A stretch of 40,013 nucleotides of DNA from Microcaldota archaeon (GCA_021821445.1 JAKACK010000009.1:1-40013); one strand, 5' to 3'. Positions 3 through 26,998 are shown, numbered from the stretch's first letter. Notes: generated by a model from the letters alone, not told the origin. Made by a program: numbers and translations.

Positions 3-428
3 GGAACAACATGTACCGCAACATCTGGTGCATTGTGTACATCTCCTATAGCATCACCTGGAAACTTCATAGTAACATTAGGACAAGTAGGTACAACAGA
101 CTGGGGAACTACAACTTTCGCATTCGTTCCAACAGGTTCTGTAATGCCAACAACATCTAGTCTGATATCATTCCCAGCTGGTTCGGTATTAGGAACTGTA
201 AAAGGATCTGTAGCTGATACTAGTAACGCATTACGAGCAACTTCTATGACAAGTGGATTTACTACGACTGTAGATTTCAGTGATGCAAATTCTATAGGAA
301 CAGGAACAATTCCAACAGCAGTAGGATCAACAACCTCTGGAGAAATATGGGCAATATATGAATTACCCTCATCTTCTACAACCTATTATGCACAAGAACT
401 TGGAAAAGTAACAATGAAGATATCTTGA
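3..428 (+). CDS. Type IV pilin-like surface protein, 5' end cut off by the window edge (paralog of 558..1205)
   Basis: Frame is open from position 3 and reads GTTCTATSGALCTSPIASPGN..., colinear with residues of the 558..1205 protein downstream of its class III signal peptide. The ORF-track start at 33 is internal. Confidence 0.8.
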   Translation, partial: GTTCTATSGALCTSPIASPGNFIVTLGQVGTTDWGTTTFAFVPTGSVMPTTSSLISFPAGSVLGTVKGSVADTSNALRATSMTSGFTTTVDFSDANSIGTGTIPTAVGSTTSGEIWAIYELPSSSTTYYAQELGKVTMKIS

Positions 429-557: not shown

Positions 558-1205
558 GTGGATATTATGGAAAACACTAAGAAAAATTTCAAAGCGCAGA
601 GCGCTATGGAATATTTGATGACTTATGGTTGGGCAATTTTGATAATTGCAATAGTACTTGCAGCACTTTATGTATTAGGAGTATTTAACGGAAGTGCATT
701 TATAGGAACAACATGTACCGCAACATCTGGTGCATTGTGTACATCTCCTATAGCAGCACCTGGTAATTTCTCAGTTACATTAGGACAAGTTGGTACAACA
801 GACTGGGCAAATACAACTTTCGCATTCGTTCCAACAGGTTCTGTAATGCCTGCAACATTAGGATTACTTTCATATCCTAATAATTCAGTAATTGGAAATG
901 TAATTGGTAGTGTAAGTACTACCGGATCTGCATCTTACACTACAGCATCAGGAGCAAAATCATCAAGTGTAAGCAGTGTTCCAGAAGCAAAGTCTATGAC
1001 AAGTGGATTCACTACAAAGGTAGTTTTCAGTGCATCATCTAATTGCTTAGATACATCATCAAACACATTAAAAAGTTGCAGTTCAATACCAAGTGCAGTA
1101 GGATCAACAACATCCGGAGAAATATGGGCAATATATGAATTACCATCATCTTCTTCAACTTATTATGCACAAGAACTTGGAAAAGTAACAATGAAGATAT
1201 CCTGA
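558..1205 (+). CDS. Class III signal peptide-containing type IV pilin-like protein (start may be ATG at 567)
   Basis: N-terminus KAQSAMEYLMTYGWAILIIAIVLAALYVLGVF is a classic archaeal class III prepilin signal: charged n-region, Q-S-A-M-E, hydrophobic helix. Confidence 0.85.
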   Translation: MDIMENTKKNFKAQSAMEYLMTYGWAILIIAIVLAALYVLGVFNGSAFIGTTCTATSGALCTSPIAAPGNFSVTLGQVGTTDWANTTFAFVPTGSVMPATLGLLSYPNNSVIGNVIGSVSTTGSASYTTASGAKSSSVSSVPEAKSMTSGFTTKVVFSASSNCLDTSSNTLKSCSSIPSAVGSTTSGEIWAIYELPSSSSTYYAQELGKVTMKIS

Positions 1206-15214: not shown

Positions 15215-18200
15215 ATGGTAAAATACGAGCCAATGGATTTTAATCAAGATAATGAGAATGATGAATCTCAAAGTGGAGATGATTATCTATCAAAACTTCA
15301 AAACAATAATTCAAATTTAGATAATCAGAATGATAATACTGATAATAATCAGCAATCCGATAGCTCTAATTCTAATAATTATACAGGATCTGATCAGAAT
15401 TTCCAAGAAGAACCAAATTCTGATGATACTGAAAACCAGAATACTGACCAAACTTCAAATTCCGATAATACAGAAAACAACAATTCAGATACCAAACAGA
15501 ATGATGTAAAAAGCACCAAAAAGAAAAAAAATACACAAAAAAGCAATAAAAAAGATTTATCAATAGATGAATATTTAGATAACGTTATTAAAGCAAAAAA
15601 AGGTACTAAAAGCAATAAAACCATAATTCCACCATCTAATGAAAATAATCCGCCTCAAAATCAATATAATCCTGAGATTGATGAGCAAAGTTCATTAAAT
15701 CAAAATAATATTAATCAGAATAATCCACAAAATAATCAAAACGAAGTTCTTAATCAGCCTATGTTAGATCAACAATTCTATAATGAACAACAAGATAATT
15801 ATCCTAATCAAGCTCAGCCTGATAACCAAAATCAAAACGTCCATAAAAGATTTGGGATAAACAAAGAAATAAATAAAATCAACGAAGTAAACCCAAAAAT
15901 AATAAAACCAAATTTAAAATATAATAGCGCTGGCAAAAAAAAGTTGATAATATTCATAATCGTGATTATAGCATTAATTGCGATAGTAGGAGCAGGAGTA
16001 ATATTACTGCATCATCCAAAAAAAGTTGTTACAAAAGTACCTGTATCCGCACCTAAATTTCATTATATAAATAGTTGTCAGTCAATTATAAAATCTGGTG
16101 TTTATTACCTAGGTACCAATCTTACGTATTCAGGTACATCAGGCAGTTGTATAAATATAAGAGCTAGTAATGTATCATTTATATGCAAAAATAAGGGTAT
16201 AACAGGATCTGAAGGTAATTCAAACGGTGTATTAATTTCTAATGAAAATAACGTTTCTGTAGAAGGATGCTCAATAACAAAGTTTGCTTATGGAATTAAT
16301 ATAAACGATTCAAATAATTCAATAATCTCATTTAACAACATTTCAGATAATTTAATATCATCAATAAATTTAAAAGGTGGAAAAAATAATTATATACTAA
16401 ACAATACTATTATAGGTTCAGGAGAGAAATATGGTGCAATATATCTTTATGATAATGCTTCAAACAACACTATAAGTCAAAATAAAGTATTGGGAAGTGA
16501 TAATGTAAGTATATATATAGATTCAGCTGGGAATAAGATATATGAAAACACAATAAACGATACACCTTACGCATTCTATTGTAATGTAAATTATGGATTA
16601 CCTAGTAGTAATTTAGCTTATGCAAATTCCTGTTATAAAAACATTGGATGTGATTTTGAAGAGTGTAGCGTATTAAATATACCTGACAATGTATCAAAGA
16701 TTACATTGAGCCCAAAAATATATACCTGCGGTTCAATAAATTCACCAGGAAACTATACCATGATGGATAATATAACTGCAGGATACCTAAATATAAATTA
16801 TACTAGCCCATATGGTGTAGTAAACAAATCCCTGTTATACTATCCAAAATGTATAACCATAACAAAACCAAACGTAACATTAAATTGTAATAACTATTCA
16901 ATATACGATTCAGATGAAGGAATAAACATATTTGGTTTAAAGAATGTTTCATTAGAAAATTGCAATCTTAATGGTGATAGTAAAGCGATAAATGATTCAT
17001 TTTCAAACTATACAGTAATGAAAAATATACAAATATCAAATAGTACAAACTATGGAATAAATTTTGCTTCTTCATATAACGGAACTATTTCAAATGTATC
17101 TATAAGCAATAGTAGTGACGGTATATACCTATTCGCTGGTTCCGAATATAATGTGTTTTATAATATATCCTTAAAAAATAATCAGTATGGAGTGTTCCTT
17201 AATTATTCTAATTTAAATATATTTAATAATTTCAAAATAAAAAATAATAGTTATGGGGTATTTTTCAAATCCTCGCTTTATAATACATTCAACAACGGTA
17301 ATATAACCAATAATTCCGTTATAGATCTTTATGCAGAACCAGATTCAATAGCAAACAAAACTACAAACATATTTGATTCTACAACATGTGGTTTGAGTGA
17401 TACAAAATGGGGTGTATGCAAATATTATGTATTACCTAAATTGAATATATACCCAATAAATAGCTGTCTAAATATAACAAGATCTGGAAATTATGTACTT
17501 GACAAAAATATAGTAACATCAAATTCAAGGTGTATAACAATAACAAAACCAAACGTAACTTTATCATGTTCAAATTATTCAATAAGTCAAGCAACACCGA
17601 ATCATGGAACTGCAATATATGAAAATGGTTTGAATAATATAACTATAAATCATTGTGGTATATATGGTTTTGACCATTCAATATCAATTTCAAATTCAAG
17701 TAAAATTAATATTTATAATTCTACATTAAAAGATTACAATCCAATAAAAGTGTCCAATTTAACTTACTTCTATTTCATAAATAATTCAATTAAAACATCA
17801 GGGGAGGAGGGATTAAATATAAATACAGTATCCAAGAGTGTAATCTATGATAACCATATAACCGGAAATGATAGAACTAATGGAATGGTGCTAAATAACT
17901 CTTATATTAATCTTATATTCAATAATACAATATATTCAAATATGGTAGGATTTGAATTAGAAAATAACTCAATAAATAATACGATATTCAATAACACTGT
18001 AGGTTTGAGTTCAGAGTACGATTATGAATGTTCCCCACAAGCAAGCCATATATACTCCGAGTATAAAGGATATAATTACGGGCAAAAAACAAATAAATGC
18101 TCATGGCTATCAGCTCTTAGTACTTCATCCCCATATGCATCTTGCTATATAGTGTCAAATCCAACGAAGATAAATATAAATTCAGATTACCTTTACAGAT

Positions 18201-18496
18201 ACGGAACAGTTTGCATGAAGATAATTTCAAATGATGTTACCTTAAATTGTAATAATCACACAATTTCAGCATTGCGTGGAGGTACTTATGTAAATGTGAT
18301 TAATTCAAATAATTTCAAAATTGAAAACTGTTACTTGCAAGGTTTCACCTCACCAATACAGGTATCAAATTCAGCTGGATCAATTATAGGAAATAAAGTA
18401 CTTATAAAGAAAGTTGACGTGTCAAATGCAATTGTAATATCAAATTCGCCGAATGTAACTACAAGCGAAAACTACATCTACAATTATTCCTCTTAA
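15215..18496 (+). CDS. Membrane-anchored giant surface protein: N/Q-rich cytoplasmic N-terminus, one TM, extracellular beta-helix-like (NosD/CASH-like) repeats
   Basis: N/Q/D-rich first ~230 aa; TM KKKLIIFIIVIIALIAIVGAGVILLHH; repeated modules of the form SC.NI..SGNY.L..NI....CITITKPNVTLNCNNYSI....GI.I....N..I.NC. Confidence 0.75.
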   Translation: MVKYEPMDFNQDNENDESQSGDDYLSKLQNNNSNLDNQNDNTDNNQQSDSSNSNNYTGSDQNFQEEPNSDDTENQNTDQTSNSDNTENNNSDTKQNDVKSTKKKKNTQKSNKKDLSIDEYLDNVIKAKKGTKSNKTIIPPSNENNPPQNQYNPEIDEQSSLNQNNINQNNPQNNQNEVLNQPMLDQQFYNEQQDNYPNQAQPDNQNQNVHKRFGINKEINKINEVNPKIIKPNLKYNSAGKKKLIIFIIVIIALIAIVGAGVILLHHPKKVVTKVPVSAPKFHYINSCQSIIKSGVYYLGTNLTYSGTSGSCINIRASNVSFICKNKGITGSEGNSNGVLISNENNVSVEGCSITKFAYGININDSNNSIISFNNISDNLISSINLKGGKNNYILNNTIIGSGEKYGAIYLYDNASNNTISQNKVLGSDNVSIYIDSAGNKIYENTINDTPYAFYCNVNYGLPSSNLAYANSCYKNIGCDFEECSVLNIPDNVSKITLSPKIYTCGSINSPGNYTMMDNITAGYLNINYTSPYGVVNKSLLYYPKCITITKPNVTLNCNNYSIYDSDEGINIFGLKNVSLENCNLNGDSKAINDSFSNYTVMKNIQISNSTNYGINFASSYNGTISNVSISNSSDGIYLFAGSEYNVFYNISLKNNQYGVFLNYSNLNIFNNFKIKNNSYGVFFKSSLYNTFNNGNITNNSVIDLYAEPDSIANKTTNIFDSTTCGLSDTKWGVCKYYVLPKLNIYPINSCLNITRSGNYVLDKNIVTSNSRCITITKPNVTLSCSNYSISQATPNHGTAIYENGLNNITINHCGIYGFDHSISISNSSKINIYNSTLKDYNPIKVSNLTYFYFINNSIKTSGEEGLNINTVSKSVIYDNHITGNDRTNGMVLNNSYINLIFNNTIYSNMVGFELENNSINNTIFNNTVGLSSEYDYECSPQASHIYSEYKGYNYGQKTNKCSWLSALSTSSPYASCYIVSNPTKININSDYLYRYGTVCMKIISNDVTLNCNNHTISALRGGTYVNVINSNNFKIENCYLQGFTSPIQVSNSAGSIIGNKVLIKKVDVSNAIVISNSPNVTTSENYIYNYSS
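16850..16903 (+). repeat. Copy of the internal CITITKPNVTL module repeat
   Basis: tgtataaccataacaaaaccaaacgtaacattaaattgtaataactattcaata resembles 17531..17584 at nucleotide level. Confidence 0.7.
17531..17584 (+). repeat. Copy of the internal CITITKPNVTL module repeat
   Basis: tgtataacaataacaaaaccaaacgtaactttatcatgttcaaattattcaata, compare 16850..16903. Confidence 0.7.
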
Positions 18497-20303: not shown

Positions 20304-20633
20304 CTAACTAATAGAACGTCCACTTTCTATAATTTTAGAAAACTTTTGAACACTCTTTATTATATTCTTTACTTTTGGATTTAATTTATAACCCAAACCG
20401 TAACCCGTATTCGTCCTTATATGTGTTGGTTGTATAACATTGAGATCGAGTGAAAGCTCTCTTAAAGTTATTATAAGGGTTTTCCTAGTGAACTTCTTCT
20501 CCAATATAGAATAAAGCTCTTTTGTAGTCCTCGGTGATTTTTGTAATAGTAGTTCCATCACCGCATAATTAGGTCTACTCAATGCTTTTCTTAATGCCCA
20601 AATATTATCCAATTCTTTTTCATTTCTTGTCAT
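20304..20633 (-). CDS. Winged-helix-type transcriptional regulator
   Basis: ALSRPNYAVMELLLQKSPRTTKELYSILEKKFTRKTLIITLRELSLDLNVIQ is wHTH-like; divergent to the pilus cluster. Confidence 0.6.
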   Translation of the reverse strand: MTRNEKELDNIWALRKALSRPNYAVMELLLQKSPRTTKELYSILEKKFTRKTLIITLRELSLDLNVIQPTHIRTNTGYGLGYKLNPKVKNIIKSVQKFSKIIESGRSIS

Positions 20634-20807: not shown

Positions 20808-22289
20808 ATGAAATTTCAATTAAATAAACTTTTAAACCATAATTTTAATTTTGAGAATAATCAATTAAAAATAAATCCTATAAAATTAAATTTTTCGATA
20901 TCAAAAACACCACAAAGCAAAATAATAGAGCGTATAAATGATTTTAAAGTGATTGAAAAATCTGGAAATATTAATTTTTATTGTATACTAAATGATGAGC
21001 GAGCTTTCAACGAATCAGAAGCAGAATTACTTAAAAGATCTGTGATAGAGTATATTATAAATTCTAATCTTAATTTAAAATACTCAAAAGAATCCCTAAA
21101 ATTTGTTCAGAATATTTTAATCAATAATTATGGTGCAGATAAATTATCCTCTTATATAATAGCACATGATACAATAGGTTATGGTCCTATTAGTGTAATT
21201 CTTGAAAATTCAGATAAAATAGAGGAAATAATGATAAATGGACCAAGATCTCCAATATCTATATATCATTCCGAATATGGATTTTGTGAAACAAATCTGA
21301 AATTCAATGGTGTAGAAGAGTTCAAATTTATAATGAATAAATTAATTGCGGATACTGAAAAAGAGGTAAATGAATCCTTTCCTATAATTGATGCTGAACT
21401 ATCAAATGGTTCCAGAATACATATACAGATAAAACCATATTCACAGAGTGGTGCAACAGCATCAATAAGATTAAATAGTGGCAAATCAATCAATTTAAGA
21501 AAATTAATCGATTATAAGACTCTAACACCAGATATTGCAGCTTACCTATGGCTTGCAATTGAGTTAAATTATAATATGATAATTTCAGGAGCACCTTCAG
21601 CAGGAAAAACAACTATGCTAACAGCTTTAGCGTCATTTCTTCCAAGGTATGTAAGAATAGTTAGTGTGGAGGAGGATGTAAACGAGCTTAAATTCCACAG
21701 CAATTTTATAAACTCTATAAACTTACAAGGAAATTCAAATACAGAAGTTAATTTAAAAGAGCAGATTATAAATGCATTGCATTTGCGTCCGGATCGTCTT
21801 ATAATCGGAGAGATAAGAGGAGCTGAAGCTCACGATGTATTTTTTGGTTCGAATATAGGAGTTCCATTTATGACCACCTTACACAGCCAACTTGATGCAA
21901 AATCCCTTCTTTATAGATTACAATCAAAACCTATGTCGATAGAACCAAATCTTTTAAAATCCTTAGATATAGCTATTTTTATATCACATAACCAAATCGA
22001 TAATTCACGAAAAATAGAAAATATATCCGAATACAATTGGCTCGCTAAAGGTGAGACCTTAGATGATTTAAATCTTCCAGCAGTTAAAATTTTAAGTGTG
22101 GCTGAAAATGGATTAAGTCAGATAAGAGGATTAAAAAAATCAAAAGTAATCAAAAAATATTCTGAAGTACATGCATTGAGCATAGAGGAATCAATTGCAG
22201 AGTTTAAAAAACGTTCAGATTATTTGGGCAAATTACCAGAAAATCACAGCATATCTGAATATATACAATCTTATTGGGAGATAAAATGA
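20808..22289 (+). CDS. Type II/IV secretion (Tad/archaellum/pilus-type) assembly ATPase
   Basis: Walker A SGAPSAGKTTMLTALASFLP, Asp box VSVEEDVNEL, Walker B RPDRLIIGEIRGAEAHDVF, His box MTTLHS. Confidence 0.95.
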   Translation: MKFQLNKLLNHNFNFENNQLKINPIKLNFSISKTPQSKIIERINDFKVIEKSGNINFYCILNDERAFNESEAELLKRSVIEYIINSNLNLKYSKESLKFVQNILINNYGADKLSSYIIAHDTIGYGPISVILENSDKIEEIMINGPRSPISIYHSEYGFCETNLKFNGVEEFKFIMNKLIADTEKEVNESFPIIDAELSNGSRIHIQIKPYSQSGATASIRLNSGKSINLRKLIDYKTLTPDIAAYLWLAIELNYNMIISGAPSAGKTTMLTALASFLPRYVRIVSVEEDVNELKFHSNFINSINLQGNSNTEVNLKEQIINALHLRPDRLIIGEIRGAEAHDVFFGSNIGVPFMTTLHSQLDAKSLLYRLQSKPMSIEPNLLKSLDIAIFISHNQIDNSRKIENISEYNWLAKGETLDDLNLPAVKILSVAENGLSQIRGLKKSKVIKKYSEVHALSIEESIAEFKKRSDYLGKLPENHSISEYIQSYWEIK

Positions 22290-23011
22290 TAAATCATAAA
22301 TTCAAAAATAATTTAAGCTATTTGATAATATTATTAATAGGATCATTTATTCTATATTTTCTATTTGGTTTATATGCGATATTTATGATTCCATTATTCT
22401 TATCATCATTAATCATACAAAAATTTATAAATTCAAAATATGAATACAAAAAGAAATTTTTAGATAAAAAGAATTCATTCTTAAATTTCCTTCGTTTTAT
22501 AGTGACGAAAACAGAATTAGAGAATAAAGGAGCCATATCAATTTTAGAATCTGCAAGTCAAAATAACAAAGATATATACGCAAATAAATTATTAAAAAGA
22601 TTAAATTTAGGAGAGAACATAGACCAATCTCTTAGTGATATAAAAGACAGTTTATCAGCACCTATTATAAATGAAATTATTGGAAATTTAAAAAATGGGA
22701 TGAGTTTAGATAAAAGTATAAATTCGGTATTAAACTCAGAAATGAACCTAATTGATTACAATTATATGACAAATATAGAATTAATAAAAAAATATTCCAT
22801 AGCAACAACTCTAACATCTATAATAATCCCCACATTTTTAATCTTTGGGTTTATCGGATATTCAATAATAAATCCATTATCAATAATGTTTATCATATTC
22901 GCATCTGTTCTGCTATTTGTGCTTCCAATAATAAATCTTATAATAAAAAATAAAATGACTCTTTTTTATTATCAAATTCAAGAAAGTGAAGAATCATTAT
23001 CCAATTGGTGA
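22286..23011 (+). CDS. TadB/TadC-like pilus platform membrane protein (first of two)
   Basis: TM helices flanking a helical region (NLKNGMSLDKSINSVLN) typical of T2SSF domains; directly after the ATPase with a small overlap. ATG at 22286. Confidence 0.65.
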   Translation: MINHKFKNNLSYLIILLIGSFILYFLFGLYAIFMIPLFLSSLIIQKFINSKYEYKKKFLDKKNSFLNFLRFIVTKTELENKGAISILESASQNNKDIYANKLLKRLNLGENIDQSLSDIKDSLSAPIINEIIGNLKNGMSLDKSINSVLNSEMNLIDYNYMTNIELIKKYSIATTLTSIIIPTFLIFGFIGYSIINPLSIMFIIFASVLLFVLPIINLIIKNKMTLFYYQIQESEESLSNW

Positions 23012-23049
23012 TTTAAATAAAAATTAATTTTATAAATAATATAAACAAA

Positions 23050-23811
23050 ATGACTTCATCTTTAATCTATATAATTGCGGCTATATTAGATCTCACATTG
23101 TTAATTATATTTTGGTTTAATTCAAATATAATTGCAATTTTAATTTATCTAATATTAAATGCCGTAGTATTATATAAAAGTGGCATCTTTGAGCAAAATA
23201 AGATTAAATTTGAATGTGAAGAATTATTAGATAATCTTTTATCAAAGTCAAATTCAACAAGTATACCAAAGGTAAAGCTTCTGGAACAATCATTAAATAA
23301 AAAATTCATTTTCAGCAAAGATTTTAGTGAGGCTATAAAATACTATAAATTATCAGGATCTATAGATAGATTCAACAAAATAAATACTCATAATTCATTT
23401 ATACTTAAAAGATTAATTGAAGATTTAATTGCATCATTCTCCAAAAACCTCAGTATACAAAAAAGGTTGAATAGTCTAAGAGAGGATTATAAGAGGACCG
23501 ATAATTACAATAAAATTGCATCGAGCATAGTGAGTAGTTCAAAAAAGATGTCATTGATTGGCGAACTTCTGTTTCTACCATTATTCGCAGGAATATCATA
23601 CGATATACTCAAATTCACATCTTTTGGAGGTACAAGAGAAATATACATACTTCCAATTCTGATGATTTTATACTTCTTAATCTCAAGTTGGATAGAAAAT
23701 TTGCACTCTAATTTGTCTAATTCATTTAAAACTTACAAAATAGCTTTTTACACCTCTTTTTCATCTTTTATTATGATTATCGCTTCCATGCTGATAACAA
23801 AAATTTTATAG
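23050..23811 (+). CDS. TadB/TadC-like pilus platform membrane protein (second of two)
   Basis: Similar size and layout: N-terminal TMs, helical region (SIDRFNKINTHNSFILKRLIEDLIASFSKNLSIQKRLN), C-terminal TMs. Confidence 0.55.
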   Translation: MTSSLIYIIAAILDLTLLIIFWFNSNIIAILIYLILNAVVLYKSGIFEQNKIKFECEELLDNLLSKSNSTSIPKVKLLEQSLNKKFIFSKDFSEAIKYYKLSGSIDRFNKINTHNSFILKRLIEDLIASFSKNLSIQKRLNSLREDYKRTDNYNKIASSIVSSSKKMSLIGELLFLPLFAGISYDILKFTSFGGTREIYILPILMILYFLISSWIENLHSNLSNSFKTYKIAFYTSFSSFIMIIASMLITKIL

Positions 23812-23818
23812 TGATAAA

Positions 23819-24055
23819 ATGACAACATACATAGATATAATAGAGGCCATGTTGGTAATGGCAAAATCGAAGAAAAAGGCACAAGGATCTATAGAATACC
23901 TACTGATGCTTTCTGCTGTTAGCATTGTGATAGTAATAGCTTTAGCTATGATAGTTCAATTGAAAGGAGCAGCTATACACGCATTTTACAATTCAACTAA
24001 TCAAAGCTTAGTAGGGCAAATAGGAATGGAGATATCAAACATTTCTAAAAAATAA
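23819..24055 (+). CDS. Class III signal peptide pilin-like protein (small, candidate major pilin)
   Basis: SKKKAQGSIEYLLMLSAVSIVIVIALAMIVQLKGAAI. The start may be the ATG at 23849. Confidence 0.8.
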   Translation: MTTYIDIIEAMLVMAKSKKKAQGSIEYLLMLSAVSIVIVIALAMIVQLKGAAIHAFYNSTNQSLVGQIGMEISNISKK

Positions 24056-24065
24056 ATTAGAAGCA

Positions 24066-24449
24066 GTGAAAAATATGATAAAAAAGGCGCAGATGTCTAT
24101 TGAATTTATTATCTATATCGCAATTTCTGCTATCTCATTAGTTGCAGTACTTTCAATATACCATTTCGGTAGTTTAAAGATAAACTCAACTATGAATTTA
24201 GACTATATAGATAATTTTGCATCTATCATAAATTCGAATTTATACCAGTACAAATCAACATTTACCTCTTATATACCGAATTCAATATGTAAAATTAAAA
24301 TAGCGGGGTATGAATTGAAATATAAAAATAAATCGATAGCAATCGATGCACCTGTAAAATTAAACAATAGCATATGCAAAAATAGCGGAAAAATTGAAAA
24401 TATGACTATGTATTATTCAAACGGAACTTATTTTTTGGGTGCATCTTAA
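24066..24449 (+). CDS. Class III signal peptide pilin-like protein
   Basis: MIKKAQMSIEFIIYIAISAISLVAVLSIYHFG. ORF-track start is non-ATG; ATG at 24075 is an alternative. Confidence 0.75.
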   Translation: MKNMIKKAQMSIEFIIYIAISAISLVAVLSIYHFGSLKINSTMNLDYIDNFASIINSNLYQYKSTFTSYIPNSICKIKIAGYELKYKNKSIAIDAPVKLNNSICKNSGKIENMTMYYSNGTYFLGAS

Positions 24450-24644
24450 ATGAAATTGCAAATTCTATACGAAATGGTAATCCTTATGACAATAGCTTTG
24501 TTATTCATATCAATGATATCTGTATTTTACATATGGTTAAACAATTCAATTAAAAAATCAATTCAATCTAATGCAATCCCGTTATCCTCAAATTCATTAA
24601 ATGGCAGCATAAGACCTTATAGCTATTTTCAAATATCTGGCTGA
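24450..24644 (+). CDS. Small membrane or pseudopilin-like protein
   Basis: MKLQILYEMVILMTIALLFISMISVFYIWL; tightly packed within the cluster. Confidence 0.5.
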   Translation: MKLQILYEMVILMTIALLFISMISVFYIWLNNSIKKSIQSNAIPLSSNSLNGSIRPYSYFQISG

Positions 24645-24649
24645 TCAAT

Positions 24650-24982
24650 ATGAAGGGACTTTTATTATCTTTTGATTTAATCTTTGGTATATTGATTTTT
24701 ATAACAGTTCTATTAATCTCAATTGCCTTTTTGTCAAATGTTAGTTTATCCGATGGAAATTTACAAACTAATTTATCTTCCTTCATAGCGATAAATTCCA
24801 GATTACAGGAGCAGATTTATATTTATAATCAATTTGGATCTATTCAGACATTTACGAAATCTGGATTTTTAGTATCGAAACTGAATCTTTCAAAACCTAT
24901 TTCAAAATCAATTTACAATGAATGTGCTAATCTTTGCAGGATGATTTACCGTAAAGGTAAATTTTATATAATATCGGTGTAA
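24650..24982 (+). CDS. Pilin-like membrane protein
   Basis: MKGLLLSFDLIFGILIFITVLLISIAFLSNV N-terminal hydrophobic helix; packed cluster. Confidence 0.5.
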   Translation: MKGLLLSFDLIFGILIFITVLLISIAFLSNVSLSDGNLQTNLSSFIAINSRLQEQIYIYNQFGSIQTFTKSGFLVSKLNLSKPISKSIYNECANLCRMIYRKGKFYIISV

Positions 24983-24985
24983 AAA

Positions 24986-26287
24986 ATGAAAATCCAAACA
25001 ACTTTAGAATTTATAATAATATTGACAGTAATATCCTCTTTAATAGTATTTTCGTTGTCTATTTACGCGTCAATATCAAAAGAATCAAATTTGTTATTTA
25101 ATAGTATTAGCAATTCTCCCACAATCACATCTCAAAATAATTCTATGATCATATCATATGAATCAGGTGCACCAAAAATATTCGCATATATAGGAAATTT
25201 ATCTGAAATGGGTATTCCTAATTATGGTTATTTGGAGGTTTTAAGTAATGACAAAGTAATTATATTAAATCTGAGTATGAGTACCAACAATGGTCAGTTA
25301 ATATACGATAATTTCAATAAATCCATCTCTGGTTTTGAAATGATTAATTTTAATTATATCCCAAAACATAAGGGAATTTCAAATATAACAATAAAATTAA
25401 AAGCAAAAACGGATAACGGAATTTTAAACAAAGAAATTAAATTAAATACCTATGTTTACGATACTTCTATAACCCCAATAAATACTACCATTTCAGATTA
25501 TAAACCCCAAATAGCATTTAATTCAAAATATGAATACTTTAATCTTAATAGTTTAGATTCTATATATAAAATATCAACATCATCTCATTGTAGTTATAAC
25601 TATTATCACAGCAATAACCAAGAACCTATATCTATACAGTGCGGCCCTAATGCAAGCTATGATTTTTTTATCTTTTCAAGCTATTGTTATTATGATAAAG
25701 ATATATTTACAAGAACAATCTGTGTCTATAAAAATTACAATAATTCAGAAGTTGGTATAATCAACAAAAACAATCCTAATTATGGTTACAATGCCTCAAT
25801 AAAAATTCAAGATTTAAATTCAGTTATGGATGCTAACGTATCAACATTAAATCATAACCACACACCCTTGATAGAAAACGGAACCATTACAGGAAATATA
25901 ACCGTAAATAATGCAGATACAAATGATACATATAATATCGAACACAATGGGATTTTATTCAATAATCAAACAAATTATTCATTAAATGAATCATTTGTAA
26001 ACGATTTTGAAATAAGTAAAAGTAATCTTAATTCTATCCTAAACTTTTATAACAATAGCAATGTCAGTGCTCAACAGCTCAATAACATATACGAATCAAT
26101 GAATAACTATAATAGAAGCGTAAAGAAAATATATTCCAATTCATACCATAAAAAAGGTTGTAAAATAATCAACCATACATATAAATGCAATTTAAATTTT
26201 ATTCAATTATATATGACAGCTTATATAGATAATGTAACTTCAAATTATGCCTATTATTACAATGGTTCAAAAATATATATAAGGTGA
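24986..26287 (+). CDS. Large pilin-like protein, candidate tip or adhesin subunit
   Basis: MKIQTTLEFIIILTVISSLIVFSLSIYAS N-terminus with Gln-(X)-(X)-Leu-Glu like class III prepilins, then ~400 aa rich in Asn and N-X-S/T. Confidence 0.65.
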   Translation: MKIQTTLEFIIILTVISSLIVFSLSIYASISKESNLLFNSISNSPTITSQNNSMIISYESGAPKIFAYIGNLSEMGIPNYGYLEVLSNDKVIILNLSMSTNNGQLIYDNFNKSISGFEMINFNYIPKHKGISNITIKLKAKTDNGILNKEIKLNTYVYDTSITPINTTISDYKPQIAFNSKYEYFNLNSLDSIYKISTSSHCSYNYYHSNNQEPISIQCGPNASYDFFIFSSYCYYDKDIFTRTICVYKNYNNSEVGIINKNNPNYGYNASIKIQDLNSVMDANVSTLNHNHTPLIENGTITGNITVNNADTNDTYNIEHNGILFNNQTNYSLNESFVNDFEISKSNLNSILNFYNNSNVSAQQLNNIYESMNNYNRSVKKIYSNSYHKKGCKIINHTYKCNLNFIQLYMTAYIDNVTSNYAYYYNGSKIYIR

Positions 26288-26293
26288 AATAAT

Positions 26294-26695
26294 TTGCATA
26301 TAAAAAAGATGAAAGCACAAGCAGCAATTATAGAATCAGTACTTTCAATAACAATATTATTATCGGTTATAACCGGTTTAACATATATAAATTATTCCCA
26401 ATCTAGATCATACAGCCAAAATGAAAAAATAGAATTTTATAATATGGTTTATGATATCACAGAAATAGTAAATAAAAATGGGGCTGGAGTAATTTTCAAT
26501 AAATCCAATTCAACTATATTAAGCAAAATCCCTATAATATATAGATTGAGTTATTTGAGCATATTTGGACCAAAAATAAATTTCTCATATGGCAAATTAG
26601 ATTCATGCAACCAAAATTATTACTATTATTGTGTATACTACAACGGTACAAAAGATGGAAATTATAAAGGGGATATTTGTTTTTCTGGGTGTTAA
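26294..26695 (+). CDS. Pilin-like protein (TTG start)
   Basis: KKMKAQAAIIESVLSITILLSVITGL; C-terminal Cys-containing region YYYCVYYNGTKDGNYKGDICFSGC. Confidence 0.6.
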   Translation: MHIKKMKAQAAIIESVLSITILLSVITGLTYINYSQSRSYSQNEKIEFYNMVYDITEIVNKNGAGVIFNKSNSTILSKIPIIYRLSYLSIFGPKINFSYGKLDSCNQNYYYYCVYYNGTKDGNYKGDICFSGC

Positions 26696-26698
26696 AAA

Positions 26699-26998
26699 AT
26701 GGGCTTTTATGGATTTTTAATACTAATTACAATTGCGGCATTGATTAATTCAGCTTTAATATATCAAACATATATTGGAAATTCCGAAGAATTAAATTAT
26801 AATGTGAACAAATATATAGGTATAATGAATCTTGAGATACAAAAAATTTCAATCAGTGGCGTAAGCAATAAATATTTATACAATATAAACTCTTTAGGTA
26901 AACTAGATCAGTTCAATATAACTACAAGAAATAATGGAAATTATATTATCCTGAATGATATTATAAAACCCAAATTATATGAAATAATAAATAGGTAA
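26699..26998 (+). CDS. Small pilin-like membrane protein
   Basis: MGFYGFLILITIAALINSALIYQTYIG; last gene of the packed cluster. Confidence 0.45.
   Translation: MGFYGFLILITIAALINSALIYQTYIGNSEELNYNVNKYIGIMNLEIQKISISGVSNKYLYNINSLGKLDQFNITTRNNGNYIILNDIIKPKLYEIINR

Follow-up and report, generated by a model that had tools for sequence, protein, structure and literature searches.

A ten-gene locus conserved in Micrarchaeota is a probable type IV filament operon with seven pilin-like proteins

The described systems that most resemble the locus reported here are the Epd (EppA-dependent, clade 1) pili of methanogens and Thermococci (PMC4858521, PMC6668835), the Tad pili of bacteria and the clade 2 pili of Euryarchaeota. 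Epd systems have a short class III pilin with a QxSxE motif, further pilins and two short platform proteins; the motif (DUF361/PF04021) was described in PMC2910488. Within the Micrarchaeota, the genome of Ca. Mancarchaeum acidiphilum Mia14, a cultured archaeon that lives in association with Cuniculiplasma, was reported to encode two type IV pilus systems (MIA14_0170-0177 and MIA14_0252-0260) and a single FlaK-like peptidase, and to lack an archaellum (Golyshina et al. 2017, PMC5498576). Here we describe ten genes at positions 20808-26998 of a 40,013-nucleotide stretch of DNA from a Microcaldota archaeon (the window; GCA_021821445.1 JAKACK010000009.1:1-40013). The window corresponds to contig C17 in a genome of 840 kb with 85% completeness. 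This genome belongs to the same genus as Mia14, and its nearest relatives are two congener genomes. The named records with the same locus are Micrarchaeota.

We consider it probable that the ten genes are a complete type IV filament operon of Micrarchaeota, in which subunit roles can be proposed and attachment is the likely use. Gene content, homology, conserved sites, conserved order, co-occurrence and a separable block of genes all point to a predicted filament-assembly machine, and in this assignment we have high confidence. The roles of the single subunits are proposed with moderate confidence, and host attachment is a guess.

The products of the operon are a single secretion ATPase, a pair of TadC-type platform proteins and seven proteins that resemble pilins (Table 1). 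The genes share the plus strand and are separated by −4, 38, 7, 10, 0, 5, 3, 6 and 3 nucleotides (nt). An earlier note on this DNA, made from the sequence alone, had described ten same-strand genes lying nearly end to end, and all of its open reading frames (ORFs) stood. It had also named one assembly ATPase, which is confirmed by the match of g1 to PF00437 (T2SSE; 77.5 bits against a cut-off of 24.9). The Walker-type GAPxxGKT motif of g1 and further residues are invariant across 15 relatives. The two TadB/TadC-like platform proteins of the note are likewise borne out by profile alignment with hhalign. The probability of a match to the canonical TadC of the same genomes is 98.9% for g2 and 97.7% for g3 (94.0% to the second TadC for g3), compared with 0.1% for unrelated control profiles. 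In the Pfam scan, g2 shows one weak T2SSF stretch (10.6 bits), and T2SSF was not found in g3.

The N-terminal sites of the seven pilin-like proteins were assessed in alignments of 58-85 distinct orthologues per gene. Class III QxxxE sites are present in four of them: g4, g5, g6 and g8. The earlier note had called g4 and g5 clear class III prepilins, and this holds: g4 is at the cut-off of PF04021 (Class_IIIsignal) with 23.7 bits, and g5 is slightly below it with 17.7 bits. In 85 orthologues of g4, K/R is retained in 94%, Q (+1) in 98%, S in 96% and E (+5) in 98%; in 84 orthologues of g5, Q and E are each retained in 100%. The corresponding values for g8 are 98% for Q and 100% for E (66 orthologues). 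In g6, QxxxE occurs together with a hydrophobic stretch; the congeners read QVSFE, and a further relative (G005) reads RAQLSIEL. This protein is too short for profile tracking beyond close relatives, and its site pattern was judged by eye. In g7, D/E is found at a shifted column in 97% of 63 orthologues, with K/R upstream in 65%. In g9, Q is present in 96% of 64 orthologues, E, one position later, in 96% and K/R in 90%. The glycine of g10 is conserved in 100% of 58 orthologues; there is no acidic residue near its N terminus, and the hydrophobic stretch is uncharged. No Pfam or NCBIfam family was matched by g6-g10. The five further pilin-like proteins of the note are thus upheld by conserved sites, those of g6 being judged by eye. 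A strict site followed by a hydrophobic stretch is present in 4 of the 7 short operon proteins and in 1 of the 36 other ORFs of the window (558-1205, itself pilin-like); the site frequency in the operon exceeds chance. Fermentimicrarchaeum-type genomes carry more divergent versions of the operon (L205, L206, L309 and L310), in which genes were assigned by order and site, the profile scores being mostly weak. Clear K/R-G or K/R-A sites are observed there, also in the counterparts of g7 and g10; the g10 orthologues read RKGFAG or KKGFFG.

Conservation was surveyed over 295 genomes of the phylum, and 99 distinct operons were read. The ATPase score is bimodal. It exceeds 300 bits in the two near families of the window (f1 and f2), which also hold a few contig-cut partial matches of 232-274 bits, and it is 380-400 bits in two further families. 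In the other genomes it is below about 250 bits (one contig-cut match at 250). The order g1-g10 is identical in all f1/f2 loci listed. Among the 99 operons, 64 have g8 and g9 in place, 17 are ended by a contig edge, and 18, including divergent families, continue without g8 and g9. The gene order recurs in relatives across two families. ATPase and g8 are found together in 88 of the 295 genomes, the ATPase alone in 8 and g8 alone in 2 (Fisher p about 1e-62, relatedness ignored). In four genomes (G005, G037, G039 and G009), g7-g10 are missing behind g5 and are found elsewhere as a single block with the order kept. Loss of g8-g9 is thus rejected for these four. In Fermentimicrarchaeum limneticum (CP058998), a pilin set (L309) lies apart from the ATPase (L207); it matches g5-g10 by order and by its K/R-G/A sites. 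The co-occurrence of g8 with the ATPase and the relocated intact blocks suggest that the pilins are one functional set, with g7-g10 as a module within it. Homology, order, co-occurrence and sites support what the earlier note had proposed, a type IV filament system that is self-contained and has seven different pilin-like proteins. The pilin set is indeed large and conserved; the note had called it unusually large, but five or more pilins are likewise employed in archaella, in methanogen pili and in bacterial systems.

A phylogenetic tree was calculated for 84 ATPases. Unsafe long rows of a first quick tree were excluded, and a few long Tad/Trb rows are still uncertain. The references were bacterial Tad, FlaI, A. 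fulgidus GspE and Thermoproteota sequences; Epd (clade 1) ATPases were not among them. The window ATPase clade joins only the Fermentimicrarchaeum-type sequences (100/100). It is apart from the bacterial TadA/CpaF group (100/96), from the group of FlaI, A. fulgidus GspE and Thermoproteota (100/100) and from two other ATPases (types B and C) that most of these genomes carry. Of the groups sampled, Tad, archaellum, A. fulgidus GspE-like and Thermoproteota, none includes it. Membership of the archaellum was rejected, as the score with the ArlI-type model is 180.9 bits against a cut-off of 550 and FlaI groups elsewhere. No family matches to ArlH, ArlJ, ArlX or archaellin were obtained among the ten operon proteins; a KaiC-family ATPase is located 15 kb away. 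Membership of A. fulgidus GspE (euryarchaeal clade 2) was rejected by the tree. A likeness to clade 2 pili is seen in the closest solved ATPase, 2OAP (213 bits).

The earlier note had described the cluster as Tad-like and Epd-like, and each part stands in some respects only. The order of ATPase, TadB-type and TadC-type genes and a very short probable main pilin are shared with bacterial Tad. However, seven pilins are present here, compared with Flp and TadE/TadF in Tad, and Tad membership of the ATPase was rejected (outside the TadA/CpaF clade; 133.7 bits against a TadA cut-off of 373). Resemblance to Epd is seen in the class III pilins, which have QxSxE, and in the split platform, but the only A24 peptidase of the genome does not adjoin the operon. 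It is possible, although we do not favor it, that the operon is a fast-evolving Micrarchaeota branch of the known Epd pili. Besides the QxSxE pilins with PF04021, whose cut-off is passed in only 1 of 14 control genomes (4 match at all, M. jannaschii among them), both platform proteins are short and have no more than one T2SSF match per protein, as in Epd-like systems (PMC6668835). Golyshina et al. also place one of the two Mia14 systems in the methanogen/Thermococci group (PMC5498576). On the other hand, the operon lacks EppA or any adjacent peptidase, a second ATPase and a DUF2341 protein (no Pfam match to DUF2341 among the ten proteins), and g6-g10 belong to no named family. The sole A24 protein, with 289 amino acids (aa) and about 7 predicted membrane segments, is not clearly a 9-segment EppA.

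The claim of the earlier note that the system is undescribed was too strong. In Mia14 (G002), about 83 kb separate the operon from the other ATPase locus, a distance consistent with 82 gene numbers at 968 bp each. With the gene numbers matched by position, the window-type operon is almost certainly MIA14_0252-0260, and the published loci MIA14_0170-0177 and MIA14_0252-0260 fit types B and A, respectively (A being the window type). Since both systems were listed by Golyshina et al. (2017), this one is not unreported. For this second locus the paper lists a type IV pilus system only; the seven-pilin anatomy, the conservation and the ATPase clade are not in its main text and are new here. No description of these features, with the ATPase clade as a separate one, or of the movable module was found in the open-access literature, and the main text of Makarova et al. 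2016 does not mention Micrarchaeota.

In the Fermentimicrarchaeum-type ATPase orthologues, extra N-terminal ferredoxin-type 4Fe-4S domains were observed (L205:6169-8349, L206:9438-11717 and L207:12949-15150, minus strand). Fer4_7 scores 38.0 bits in L207 and 30.4 bits in L206 against a cut-off of 27, and Fer4_6 is above its cut-off in L205, L206 and L207. Two f25 loci (L208 and L211) have shorter ATPase ORFs of about 600 aa, probably without the ferredoxin part. A further-reaching proposal would be a separate type IV filament class inherited within Micrarchaeota, with a fixed set of seven pilins, a movable tip module g7-g10 and a use in host contact by these episymbiotic archaea, whose Fermentimicrarchaeum motor would be redox-controlled via the fused two-cluster ferredoxin. 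We regard this as speculative and rather unlikely.

For the type IV filament operon that we favor, we infer processing of the pilins, formation of a filament, a division into main and tip subunits, and host attachment. The A24 peptidase on contig 16 would remove the short leaders of the pilins. It scores 27.5 bits in the genome search and 24.4 bits, slightly below the cut-off, as a single protein; being the only one in the genome, it leaves the window without a prepilin peptidase, as the earlier note had said. The ATPase g1 would drive the two-part platform of g2 and g3, and the platform would lift pilins out of the membrane into the filament. The main subunit is probably g4, which is short and highly conserved, and g7-g10, as a separable set, probably initiate the filament and occupy its tip. 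In known type IV filaments, a minor-pilin tip complex is capped by a subunit without Glu5, and modular pilins bear grafted adhesive domains (PMC10191384). The acidic residue through which a pilin normally pairs with the following one is missing from g10, which makes g10 the best cap candidate by the Glu5 rule. It would form the outermost cap, with g7-g9 as its tip partners.

The AlphaFold2 model of g8 (mean pLDDT 88.5) has a helix at residues 2-43, an all-beta domain at 64-158 and a larger domain at 173-433 with six conserved cysteines. Of these, C202, C234, C246, C392 and C401 are invariant and C219 is nearly so. The model suggests a pilin helix bearing an Ig-like domain and a cysteine-rich domain. 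One genus lacks the first beta domain (matches span model positions 1-50 and 158-430), and the head of g8 thus appears modular. This head would touch the surface of the partner. The g8 profile gave one weak pilin match (E 0.046) and one chance-level match among the sequences of solved structures. The fold search gave partial beta-sandwich matches only, among them a CARDB domain (2kl6, TM 0.52 over the target). Among the genes of clade 2 operons is a minor pilin, likewise large and all-beta (arCOG02911, 250-550 aa; PMC4858521), to which g8 is likened by description only. The model of g9 (pLDDT 89.4) is a long helix at residues 2-37 with a small sheet; its profile matched no sequence of a solved structure, and nothing significant was obtained in the fold search.

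The filament would likely be used for attachment to other cells, for example an archaeal host. Cultured Micrarchaeota depend on contact with other archaea or live attached to them, which makes the operon a good candidate for a host-contact filament. Attachment is plausible also because filaments or pili-like links have been seen on related cells.

Several points weigh against this interpretation. The filament itself has not been observed, and pilin processing is predicted from the genes. No solved pilin resembles the whole of g8 or of g9 in the sequence and fold searches. The prepilin rule is matched less well by g7, g9 and g10 than by g4, g5, g6 and g8. Numerous other pilin-like genes of the 'SAMEYLMTYGWAIL' type (17 matches) could also be subunits. 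Pili and thin filaments on or near ARMAN-type cells are not tied to any locus, and some thick pili near such cells come from another organism (PMC4110969, PMC11329633).

A short pseudopilus-type machine for secretion or for uptake of DNA or protein, rather than a long surface pilus, seems to us improbable. A set of seven distinct subunits, of which one is short and a candidate for the main pilin and several are minor, does resemble the pseudopilin sets of secretion or competence systems, and the cultured relative, with its small number of biosynthetic pathways, relies on a partner organism (PMC5498576). However, in the loci read the operon is not accompanied by any conserved gene for a substrate, a receptor, a nuclease or a channel, and such archaea have no bacterial-type outer membrane to cross. 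We consider it very unlikely that g6, g7, g9 and g10 belong to the ordinary small proteins of the membrane and only travel with the operon: g7 and g10 lack the strict QxxxE and g6 escapes profile tracking, but the N-terminal columns of g7, g9 and g10 are conserved (acidic 97%, E 96% and G 100%), the Fermentimicrarchaeum-type counterparts of g7 and g10 have clear K/R-G sites, and g7-g10 remain together when relocated.

Table 1. Genes of the operon and the adjoining divergent gene (positions in the window; a slash marks the proposed processing site).
Gene	Position	Strand	Length (aa)	Assignment	N-terminal site	Remarks
Divergent neighbor	20304..20633	-	109	Probable winged-helix-type regulator		No Pfam match
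g1	20808..22289	+	493	Assembly ATPase, T2SSE/VirB11 superfamily		
g2	22286..23011	+	241	Platform protein, TadB/TadC type		4 nt overlap with g1
g3	23050..23811	+	253	Second platform protein		
g4	23819..24055	+	78 (precursor)	Short class III pilin	KKA/QGSIEYLLML	Candidate major pilin
g5	24066..24449	+	127	Class III pilin	KKA/QMSIEF	Alternative ATG 24075
g6	24450..24644	+	64	Short pilin-like protein	KL/QILYEM	
g7	24650..24982	+	110	Pilin-like protein	KG/LLLSFD	Acidic residue moved to +6
g8	24986..26287	+	433	Large modular pilin	KI/QTTLEF	
g9	26294..26695	+	133	Pilin-like protein	KA/QAAIIE	Alternative ATG 26309; Glu at +6
g10	26699..26998	+	99	Pilin-like protein	MGFYG	Candidate tip cap

Of 94 distinct loci whose upstream sequence is long enough, 76 have the divergent neighbor, a putative regulator, adjoining the ATPase gene. 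In G009 this neighbor is next to the relocated g7-g10 block and not to the ATPase. Its identity in the loci listed is 56-90% and exceeds that of the ATPase (about 40%), which points to a role beyond the control of the pilus operon.

Further pilin-like and surface-type genes were observed. The window gene 558-1205 (plus strand) encodes a pilin-like protein with a KAQSAMEYLMTYGWAIL start, and a tandem partial copy (33-428, plus strand) is located at the contig edge. The protein has 17 matches in the window genome and 21 in Mia14, the query counted. The type B ATPase locus comprises two canonical TadC genes and no pilins, with a LamG protein too in Mia14; proteins of the 558-1205 type are candidate pilins for it. 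The type C ATPase (L074:16259-17746, L159:10342-11781) is found in most related genomes beside translation and protein-targeting genes, with no platform or pilin gene. The gene at 15215-18496 (plus strand) encodes 1093 aa with N-terminal low complexity, a single membrane segment and repeats of the right-handed beta-helix type (PF13229, 87 bits). A protein of equal size and layout is present at the same place in both congeners. It is a possible surface protein and lies just upstream of ligase and regulator genes. With this protein and 558-1205 with its copy in the window, the statement of the earlier note that no annotated adhesin is present is not safe. In Mia14, L159:13992-19325 (minus strand) encodes a protein of 1777 aa whose N terminus is of the class III pilin type and which carries 16 InlB B-repeats; by its sequence it is a giant adhesin-like protein with a pilin-type anchor.

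We know of no molecules identified as holding Micrarchaeota and their partners together. A pilus operon kept through two families gives this question named targets, a candidate main pilin and a candidate tip protein, the latter with three possible disulfides. The fixed set of seven subunits, in which the acidic residue is at +5, at +6 or absent, is a natural test of the rule that the tip cap lacks Glu5. For ferredoxin-fused pilus motors, a literature search returned no earlier report of redox control of pilus assembly; their presence in the sister lineage would suggest such control.

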